A stretch of 35,536 nucleotides of DNA from assembly GCA_016936495.1 (NCBI GenBank), contig JAFGXT010000329.1, forward strand, positions 1 to 35,536. Direction: 5' to 3'. Positions 12,264 through 15,345 of this stretch are shown here, piece after piece. The notes beneath the pieces are model-generated. The model had not been told where the DNA came from. It worked only from the letters and a program-made list of their open reading frames with translations, and did no database searches. Made by a program: the position numbers and the translations under genes. The DNA is from Victivallales bacterium (GTDB lineage Bacteria; Verrucomicrobiota; Lentisphaeria; Victivallales; SZUA-371). Each line of letters opens with the position of its first letter. The stretch's first letter is position 1.

Positions 12264-14270
12264 ATGCCAAAAACAGACACTACTGTAATGAAACTCAAGA
12301 AGCGGGATGGAAGACTTGTAGACTTCGAACCGGAACGTATCGCCATCGCGGCCGGCAAAGCTCTTAAAGCGTCAGGAACGGAAAACAGCAAGCTCGCCAC
12401 CACCATTTGCAATGATGTAGTGAGATTTCTTGAGAAAAAAGGCTTTACTGGCAATACCCACCCCGATATAGAACTGGTTCAGGATTTGGTGGAAAAATCC
12501 TTCATTAAACGTGGTTTGTCCAAGGCCGCCAAATCATATATCATTTACCGCGCCCAGCACGAGAAAATACGTGAAGGCAAAAAGATCATGATGGACGTTC
12601 AGGATCTGGTCGCCTCTTACCTTGACCGTGCGGACTGGCGCGTCAACGAGAACTCCAACGCTGGATATTCCTATGCCAGTCTGCTCAATCATGTCAGTGG
12701 TACGGTTGTGGCGCGTTATACCTTGTCAAACATTTATCCTGCGGAAATAGCCGAAGCGCATACCAGCGGGGATTTTCATTTACATGACTTGTCTTGCGGT
12801 ATCGTCGGTTACTGTGCTGGCTGGAGTTTGCGTCAATTGTTGACCGAAGGTTTCCGGGGGCGCGAAGGTCGTGCCAGTGCCGGACCGGCAAAACATTTTG
12901 ACACTGCGCTGGGGCAGATCGTCAATTTCCTGTCTACCCTTCAGACTGAGTGGGCGGGGGCACAGGCATTCAGCTCATTTGATACTTTGCTGGCGCCTTT
13001 TGTTCGCGAAGATAATCTTAATTATATCGAGATCAAACAGAACATCCAGCAATTTGTTTTCGGGTTGAACATTGCAAGCCGCTGGGGTCAGACTCCGTTC
13101 ACCAATTTGACTTTTGACTGGGTGGTGCCGGAAGACTTGAAAAATCAGGCGGTGATTATCGGTGGAAAAGTTCAAGAAGGCAAATACTATCGCGATTATC
13201 AACCGGAAATGGAACAGATCAACCGTGCGTTCCTCGAAGTGATGAGCGAAGGCGATCGCGACGGCAGGATTTTCACCTTCCCGATTCCTACCTATAATAT
13301 AACCAGCGACTTTGACTGGGATAGCGATAACGCTAAACTCTTGTTCAGCGTTACCGGGAAATACGGCTTGCCGTTTTTCCAGAATTTCATCAATAGCGAT
13401 CTGAATCCCGGCGACGTCAGAAGTATGTGCTGCCGTCTGCAAATGGATATTCGTGAGCTGCGTAATAAGACCGGCGGACTTTTCGGTGCCGGGGAACAGA
13501 CCGGTTCAATCGGCGTTGTTACCATCAATATGCCGCGTTTGGGTTACATCTCCAAGGACGAAAAAGAATTTCTGGCACGTCTTGCCGGGCTTATGGATAT
13601 GGCGAAAGAATCTCTGGAAATCAAGCGCAAGGTCGTACAGCGTTATCTCGAAGGCGATTTGCTGCCATATACTCAGACTTATCTGGGAACGTTGAAAAAT
13701 CATTTCAGCACCATCGGACTGGTTGGTCTCAATGAAGCCTGCCTGAACTTCAAGGGCTGTTCGATTTTTGACAAGGAAGGGCTTGAGTTTTCAGAACGGG
13801 TACTGGTGTTCATGCGGGATCGCATCGCCGACTACCAGGAGCAGACCGGGCATATCTACAATCTCGAAGCAACTCCGGCGGAGGGGACCAGTTTCCGTCT
13901 GGCGAATTTGGACAAAAAGAAATTCCCGGATATTATCACCGCGGGAGATTCCAATCCGTATTACACTAATTCATCTCAGTTGCCAGTGGGCTATACCGAT
14001 GATATTTTCGAAGCGCTTGACCTTCAGGAACCGCTTCAGAACAAATATACCGGTGGTACAGTGTTCCATGGCTTTATGGGAGAACGCATCGAGGATCCGG
14101 ATCAGGTGGCGTCTATGGTCAAACGCATCGCCGAAGGCTATAAGATACCGTATTTCACCATTACGCCGTCGTTCAGTATCTGTCCGGTTCACGGATATAT
14201 TCCTGGAGCTCATGAAGAATGTCCGCATGAAGTTCCGGGTGCGGATCAGTTTAAAGTAGTTAACGGATAA
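12264..14270 (+). CDS. nrdD: Anaerobic (class III) ribonucleoside-triphosphate reductase, large polypeptide without the glycyl-radical tail
   Basis: 668 aa; N-terminal ATP-cone (KLKKRDGRLVDFEPERIAIAAGKAL), catalytic domain (FHLHDLSCGIVGYCAGWSLRQLL; PFFQNFINSDLNPGDVRSMCCRLQ), ending YFTITPSFSICPVHGYIPGAHEECPHEVPGADQFKVVNG* before any RVxGY motif. Confidence 0.93.
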   Translation: MPKTDTTVMKLKKRDGRLVDFEPERIAIAAGKALKASGTENSKLATTICNDVVRFLEKKGFTGNTHPDIELVQDLVEKSFIKRGLSKAAKSYIIYRAQHEKIREGKKIMMDVQDLVASYLDRADWRVNENSNAGYSYASLLNHVSGTVVARYTLSNIYPAEIAEAHTSGDFHLHDLSCGIVGYCAGWSLRQLLTEGFRGREGRASAGPAKHFDTALGQIVNFLSTLQTEWAGAQAFSSFDTLLAPFVREDNLNYIEIKQNIQQFVFGLNIASRWGQTPFTNLTFDWVVPEDLKNQAVIIGGKVQEGKYYRDYQPEMEQINRAFLEVMSEGDRDGRIFTFPIPTYNITSDFDWDSDNAKLLFSVTGKYGLPFFQNFINSDLNPGDVRSMCCRLQMDIRELRNKTGGLFGAGEQTGSIGVVTINMPRLGYISKDEKEFLARLAGLMDMAKESLEIKRKVVQRYLEGDLLPYTQTYLGTLKNHFSTIGLVGLNEACLNFKGCSIFDKEGLEFSERVLVFMRDRIADYQEQTGHIYNLEATPAEGTSFRLANLDKKKFPDIITAGDSNPYYTNSSQLPVGYTDDIFEALDLQEPLQNKYTGGTVFHGFMGERIEDPDQVASMVKRIAEGYKIPYFTITPSFSICPVHGYIPGAHEECPHEVPGADQFKVVNG

Positions 14271-14381
14271 TAATTAAAAGCAATAAGTTGTATTCACAAT
14301 AATAATAACAAGAAGCTTGTTCCTGACCAACCACCCGTGGGAAGCTACAAGGGGAAACAAAACCAAAAGGAGAATGGGAAA

Positions 14382-14540
14382 ATGGCAAAGTGCGGAGCAA
14401 AAACAGAGATCTATAGCAGAGTGACCGGTTATTTCAGACCCGTATCCAACTGGAACAAAGGAAAAAAAGAAGAGTTCAAGGACAGAGTTACCTTTCTTGT
14501 TCCCGCTGAACAGGCTGATTCCAGAGAAGCTGTAGCTTAA
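14382..14540 (+). CDS. Separate glycyl-radical C-terminal segment of NrdD (52 aa)
   Basis: MAKCGAKTEIYSRVTGYFRPVSNWNKGKKEEFKDRVTF... matches the canonical NrdD C-terminus (RVxGY glycyl-radical motif). AAGGAG at 14367-14372, 9 nt before ATG. Same frame as nrdD, separated from it by TAA TAA. Confidence 0.88.
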   Translation: MAKCGAKTEIYSRVTGYFRPVSNWNKGKKEEFKDRVTFLVPAEQADSREAVA

Positions 14541-14555
14541 GTTGGTCGTCAAATA

Positions 14556-14597
14556 GTGCCTTTTCGCTTGCTCCGCGGGAAGGCGCTTGATTTTTTT
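14556..14597 (+). terminator. Putative intrinsic terminator/attenuator between the small glycyl-radical ORF and nrdG
   Basis: GTGCCTT...AAGGCGC stem (one G-T wobble) followed by TTGATTTTTTT. Confidence 0.55.
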
Positions 14598-14628: not shown

Positions 14629-15345
14629 ATGAATATTCGCGGATTACAGCGTTTTTCTCTGGTGGATTATCCGGGCAAACTCGCGTGTATTGTATTTGTC
14701 GGCGAATGCAACTTCCGTTGTCCTTACTGTCATAATCCATGCCTGGTATTCGATCCCGAAAGCCAGCCGCTTATTACCGAAACAGAATTTTTTGATTTTC
14801 TGTCCAGGCGCACAGGCAAGCTTGATGGCGTGGTCATCAGTGGCGGTGAGCCCTCTCTGCGCAACGCATTGGAAGATTTTGCCCGCAAAATCAAAGAAAT
14901 GGGATTTTTTATCAAACTGGACACCAACGGCAGTACCCCCGACCGGGTCATTGAGATGCACCGCAAAGGTTATATTGATGCTTTCGGCATTGATTACAAG
15001 GCGCCGACGGAACTGTATAATTCAATTTCCCGCAACAATGCCGTGGATCTTGCCGCCAAAGTCCGCAAACTTATAAAATACGCAATCGACAACAATATTC
15101 CCACGGACATCAGGACAACGGTGCACAAATCGCTCCTGTCTGAAGATCACCTCCGGGAAATGCGTGTAGAGCTCGACACGCTGGGTGTCAGGCAGTGGAC
15201 ATTGCAGCAATTTCACCCGGTGGACATCATCGACGATAACCTGCTGGAGCAGGAAACCTATTCTGACCGGGATTTGCTCAATATCTCCCGCAACCTGGGT
15301 TCCGACACTAAAGTGCGCGGCCTCACCGGTATCCATATCCACTAA
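14629..15345 (+). CDS. nrdG: Anaerobic ribonucleoside-triphosphate reductase activating protein (radical SAM)
   Basis: 238 aa; CNFRCPYCHNPC (CxxxCxxC), VVISGGEPSLR, immediately downstream of nrdD. Confidence 0.93.
   Translation: MNIRGLQRFSLVDYPGKLACIVFVGECNFRCPYCHNPCLVFDPESQPLITETEFFDFLSRRTGKLDGVVISGGEPSLRNALEDFARKIKEMGFFIKLDTNGSTPDRVIEMHRKGYIDAFGIDYKAPTELYNSISRNNAVDLAAKVRKLIKYAIDNNIPTDIRTTVHKSLLSEDHLREMRVELDTLGVRQWTLQQFHPVDIIDDNLLEQETYSDRDLLNISRNLGSDTKVRGLTGIHIH

Follow-up and report, generated by a model that had tools for sequence, protein, structure and literature searches.

How does a class III ribonucleotide reductase (RNR) work when its catalytic chain ends before the glycine that should carry its radical? 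The locus that raises the question lies in a 35,536-nucleotide stretch of DNA (the window) from a Victivallales bacterium, where a 668-residue NrdD core ending in ...SICPVHGYIPGAHEECPHEVPGADQFKVVNG, followed by TAA TAA, stops inside the second zinc-knuckle motif and contains no RVxGY motif on inspection of its sequence, and where a second ORF in the same frame, beginning MAKCGAKTEIYSRVTGYFRPVSNWNKGKKEEFKDR, encodes a tail of 52 residues. The first-pass annotation had described an NrdD lacking RVxGY, a separate tail ORF with Gly16 and its own Shine-Dalgarno (SD) sequence (AAGGAG, 9 nt 5′ of the ATG), and a break inside CP/KC (the slash marking the break); the sequence confirms each of these, the core retaining three candidate zinc ligands and the tail contributing a single Cys.

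Profile searches place the two ORFs in one family. The core matches positions 1-526 of the 562 in PF13597 (E 2.6e-169, 565 bits) and the tail only 526-562 (E 5.7e-12), so that the two chains tile the family once. By the usual features of a class III RNR, i) the NRDD catalytic core is present, as judged from PF13597, from NCBIfam PRK08270 (1018.8 bits), and from a fold match to NrdD structures; ii) the glycyl-radical domain is absent from the core chain and is found on the separate ORF; and iii) the radical-SAM activase partner NrdG is encoded immediately 3′ (Table 1), as it is close to 27 of the 31 host loci checked. We conclude, with a probability of roughly 85%, that core and tail together form a two-chain class III RNR in which the radical subunit acts in trans, and that phages carry this subunit alone, much as YfiD and T4 Y06I serve pyruvate formate-lyase (PFL). 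The supply of the radical glycine in trans, proposed in the first-pass annotation, is strongly supported computationally by the order-wide split, its separate origins, the lack of a second intact NrdD in the assembly, and the single coverage of the family; the tail may also serve in repair and share a zinc site with the core.

Table 1. Features of the split nrdD locus (window coordinates)
Feature	Position	Strand	Basis
NrdD core: ATP-cone and 10-stranded barrel, 668 aa, lacking the glycyl-radical motif	12264..14270	+	PF13597, PRK08270, PF03477, AlphaFold model
ATP-cone domain, residues 10-100	12291..12563	+	PF03477, E 5.6e-15
Candidate core share of Zn ribbon: Cys640, His643, Cys653 (CPVH...ECP)	14181..14222	+	Sequence; kept in split relatives; Zn binding inferred from NrdD structures
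Core-tail spacer, 111 nt, SD AAGGAG at its end	14271..14381	+	Sequence; no credible Rfam element
Glycyl-radical subunit (tail), 52 aa: Cys4, radical Gly16 in SRVTGY	14382..14540	+	PF13597; solo ORF conserved in relatives and phages
Radical Gly codon (tail Gly16)	14427..14429	+	Sequence; invariant in 38-row alignment
Terminator-like hairpin between tail and nrdG, then TGATTTTTTT	14555..14587	+	13-pair stem, z -2.3
nrdG, radical-SAM activase, NrdG2 type	14629..15345	+	TIGR02495, 183.5 bits, cutoff 131

Given the hairpin that follows the tail, transcripts of core and tail may be more abundant than those of nrdG; similar hairpins lie 3′ of 13 of 28 host tails, although the pattern scan overall did not exceed shuffled sequences.

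The window belongs to a metagenome-assembled genome (MAG) of 4.5 Mb in 401 contigs, estimated to be 88.8% complete, and a fragmented assembly of this kind is where a decayed or mis-assembled nrdD might be expected. The whole assembly contains one NrdD core and two tails (that of the window and a second on contig C144), and no second intact nrdD, the presence of which, with this locus decayed, the first-pass annotation had named as fatal to its proposal; one class I/II-type RNR gene is also encoded, so NrdD need not be essential in this organism. The radical loop is missing from the NrdD core in 30 of 60 relatives of the order, nearly all of them with a separate tail ORF 3′ (in the few others the contig ends after the core or no tail was detected), and fused forms are also present. 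The split recurs in the single-contig genomes G002, G173, G141, and G073, the cores are 77-82% identical across families, named relatives putting the window among the Lentisphaerae/Victivallales, and core-adjacent tails have a pN/pS of about 0.21, indicating purifying selection. Recurrence of the same split in about 30 relatives, together with selection on the tail, excludes chance, and conservation on this scale already refutes decay or mis-assembly, to which we assign next to no probability. The first-pass annotation had also conceded that a split confined to this genome would count against it; the relatives provide the opposite result. Three genomes have two tandem tail matches directly 3′ of the NrdD core or adjoining each other (G226:C395, G301:C153, and G344:C159), and two others, G295 and G024, have six tail matches each.

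Might core and tail nonetheless be made as one protein, through stop-codon readthrough, frameshifting, or RNA processing? The shared frame in the window would allow it, and 15 of 28 core-tail pairs in relatives are likewise in frame, more than the one third expected (p 0.03); however, the remaining 13 are out of frame, the gaps span 15-181 nt, an SD is clearly recognizable for most tails, translation of the tail has its own start, and tails occur alone in phages. An intron, intein, or other intervening element at the break is not apparent either: the spacer is short and there is no large ORF between core and tail, and a search of Rfam found no credible intron or recoding element in it, the two weak matches both falling far below the gathering score. 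We therefore regard a single translated or spliced product as very improbable; as general causes of the split, assembly error, single base error, and readthrough are all ruled out by the 13 out-of-frame pairs and the varying spacings.

The two-chain organization extends well beyond the order, to spirochaetes (Treponema and others), Halomonas, Alloalcanivorax, Marinobacterium, Anaerolineae, Diapherotrites, Nanoarchaeota, and Akkermansia-type genomes, whereas Desulfovibrionaceae, Clostridia, and Actinomycetota have fused NrdDs. Three anatomies can be distinguished: i) in the window type, the cut falls inside CP/KC; ii) in Halomonas and Akkermansia-type genomes, the full CPxC knuckle stays on the core, and the tail begins ...RCEVWTRVMGYHRP or ...RCTVYTRVMGYHRP; and iii) in spirochaetes, a coil after the ribbon remains on the core and the tail has long extensions. 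Cut points differ among Akkermansia-type, Halomonas, spirochaete, and certain archaeal genomes, which implies that splitting arose several times, and a core tree built by a quick method requires seven changes between split and fused states, at least five of them forced by strong branches. Splitting may also be reversible: nested in a split clade, the NrdD of locus L090 (genome G010), ...ECPMAQCKIKCEIYSRVVGYMRP, appears to have been re-fused at the old start codon (ECP-MAQC...), but farther upstream its core is interrupted by an in-frame TAA. In this order the fused NrdDs (L012-L029) have a C-terminal glutaredoxin-like domain (TCPNCK/R), to which the long C-terminal extension of the spirochaete tails seems similar.

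An AlphaFold2 model of a read-through product (TAA replaced by G) was built on a 58-row alignment. The core is confidently predicted, the artificial linker joining the chains (662-704) is disordered, and confidence recovers in the tail to a pLDDT of 75-83, where Gly16 (model residue 722) occupies the turn that joins strands 715-720 and 723-726; every one of the best 36 PDB matches listed is an NrdD. Docking of the tail in this model is partly built in, because the chain is linked and homologous fused rows are present in the alignment. In a sequence alignment the break corresponds to CP/KCG of Prevotella copri NrdD, whose glycyl-radical domain including the Zn site spans residues 676-739. The alignment thus predicts a candidate Zn site completed across chains by core Cys640, His643, and Cys653 and tail Cys4, and the candidate core ligands are conserved among split relatives.

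We envisage that the core and the 52-residue glycyl-radical subunit are translated separately, as gene layout and conservation indicate; that NrdG would generate the glycyl radical on the tail; that on association the tail Cys would complete the Zn ribbon with the three core ligands and the Gly loop would insert into the barrel; that the glycyl radical would produce a thiyl radical at the active site of the core, if established NrdD chemistry applies; and that a tail damaged by O2 could be replaced in place of the 75-kDa core. Replacement is conceivable because glycyl radical enzymes are inactivated by O2 through cleavage of the chain at the radical glycine (PMC8683613). Glycyl-radical domains are also described as flipping out of the barrel when the radical-SAM activase acts on them (PMC12662201), and a detachable domain fits both flip-out activation and O2 cleavage.

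Tails also occur where there is no core. The second tail of the window genome, MAKCGLRTEIYSRVTGYFRPVNFWNPGKKEEFKDRLPYKAPESKG, lies on the minus strand of C144 (1268-1405) inside a prophage with a serine integrase, a DnaB-like helicase, and a RecT-like protein (PHROGs), to which CI-like repressor, exonuclease, and RusA-like genes can be added by reading of the sequence. This tail adjoins a small ASCH-like gene (prophage L004:1-18400), and a GC-rich hairpin with a T-run directly follows its stop codon. Altogether 17 of the 60 relatives have extra tails away from any core, and these orphans are concentrated in split-core genomes (15/30) as compared with fused-only genomes (2/26, namely G029 and G032; Fisher p 0.001, genomes being counted as independent despite kinship). 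Their neighbors include terminases, a phage primase, helicases, tail fibres, integrases, and ParB-like proteins. One orphan (L045) has no obvious prophage around it and is found just 3′ of an mraZ-like gene where an apparent cell-division cluster begins. In some prophages (L037:5642-6160, L042:1601-2155, and L040:796-1308) the tail frame runs without a stop into lipoprotein-like sequence with a lipobox (LSGC or LCGC), which looks like a fusion of the radical tail to a phage protein anchored in the membrane. Apparent inteins can be read in phage-like helicase and ATPase genes in the vicinity of orphan tails (L053:7524-10313 and L059:3165-4970).

Viral genomes yield the same picture on a larger scale. 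A scan of IMG/VR returned 80 loci, comprising 76 solo tails and 4 fused NrdDs; only 3 of the 76 have a core in the same locus. Across 73 viral solo tails that we analyzed, the median length is 52 residues, an SD precedes 57, and in 35 the radical glycine follows exactly 15 residues, as in the window. Sixteen neighboring viral proteins that we checked include terminases (L101 and L132), Mu-type transposases (L100 and L119), a serine integrase (L122), helicases, and several without a match. Since NrdG-like genes are near only two of the viral tails, the others would for the most part depend on the NrdG of the host. Core and separate tail are both present on viral contigs L112, L149, and L171, two of which also have an NrdG-like gene; these are apparently phages with a split NrdD of their own. 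Isolate phages (INPHARED) gave three matches, of which two have an NrdD annotation and one has none; the best of the three (MT835493) is a fused 810-residue NrdD, so prophages and metagenomic viruses are the source of the solo tails. No plasmid-borne tail was found in PLSDB with one tail query. The libraries scanned hold no dedicated model for a window-type solo tail, and in PHROGs we found no family for the tail itself, only the ends of full NrdD families and weak matches to unnamed families.

Phages of these anaerobes thus carry the tail alone. What it does for them can be read in two ways. We think it probable that phages of anaerobes widely carry a 45-55-residue NrdD radical subunit that plugs into host cores, whether obligately split or single-chain and damaged by O2, and so restores or hijacks anaerobic dNTP synthesis; this would be the first cartridge system beyond PFL, and one spread across unrelated phage types. 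During infection such a tail would most likely keep up or raise dNTP synthesis from host NrdD cores. Alternatively, with the split host enzyme taken as real, phage tails could poison or divert the dNTP synthesis of the host by acting as decoys, competitors for NrdG, or inhibitors, an idea that draws on the frequent advantage to phages of controlling host enzymes and on the additions seen in some tails, such as the lipoprotein-like C-terminus (L037 and L042) or N-terminal extensions. But a decoy would not need the exact host boundary, the pN/pS of orphan tails (about 0.24) matches that of host tails, and the invariance of the radical glycine and surrounding contact residues in orphan tails better fits a working radical subunit; we consider the decoy unlikely. 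Returning to a working subunit, a separate tip in many unrelated anaerobes and spare copies in phages suggest a replaceable part. The first-pass annotation had proposed just such a cartridge by analogy with YfiD/GrcA; the multiple orphan tail genes and the tails in many phages now lend support to what is still a proposal.

Comparison with known systems indicates what is new. Single-chain NrdDs (P. copri, S. thermophilus, T. maritima, and T4) share with the window system the core fold, ATP-cone, Zn ribbon, RVxGY loop, and NrdG activase, but in the window the radical loop is on a separate 52-residue chain and the Zn ribbon, to judge from its candidate ligands, is divided between chains. The PFL spare parts YfiD/GrcA and T4 Y06I (PMC8683613) are likewise small stand-alone glycyl-radical domains, phage-encoded too, that provide the radical in trans; they serve a different enzyme and belong to a different family, however, and at about 14 kDa they differ in size from the tails of about 50 residues. 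The window tail falls outside the PFL glycyl-radical domain family, a Pfam scan returning NRDD only, and since many host cores lack a tip the tail is, unlike YfiD and Y06I, an obligate subunit as well as a possible repair part. NrdJa/NrdJb of Pseudomonas aeruginosa (PMC4520616) provides a precedent for a functional two-chain RNR, but is a class II, B12-dependent enzyme without a glycyl radical. Fragmented phage nrdD genes are also known (phage 949, c-st, and phiAS4; PMC3653736), but these are full nrdD genes with intron, intein, or unexplained breaks, not radical tails encoded apart from any core. Andorfer et al. (2021, PMC8683613) list only YfiD and T4 Y06I as validated spare parts, both for PFL, and allow that others may exist for other glycyl radical enzymes. 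In the open-access full-text literature (subscription papers being outside this scope) we found no earlier description of a two-chain NrdD of the window kind or of an NrdD spare part. The two-chain NrdD and its replaceable tip thus appear undescribed, the phage-borne tails being the most novel part, and the sequences themselves are already in public databases.

Anaerobes obtain DNA precursors from class III RNR, an enzyme that O2 attacks at its most vulnerable site, the glycyl radical. A split NrdD offers a clean two-chain system for studies of radical installation; the solo tail represents a type of small phage gene that is easily missed; and split NrdDs with exchangeable tails, one of them apparently in cultivable Akkermansia, make the spare-part question directly testable.

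Indirect evidence that the two-chain enzyme functions comes from genome G141, apparently, to judge from its length, that of A. muciniphila ATCC BAA-835. This single contig of 2,664,102 bp encodes one split NrdD and one class II-type RNR in two hits, and a search of the genome found no class I small subunit. A. muciniphila does not synthesize cobamides without a precursor, and its robust growth is restored by methionine or a cobamide in a medium otherwise without added cobamides; the authors of that work expected NrdDG to make NrdJ dispensable (PMC7733943). Trace corrinoids being the caveat to this argument across sources, growth without added cobamide, taken together with the RNR genes of G141, implies that in A. 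muciniphila the two-chain NrdD works in vivo.
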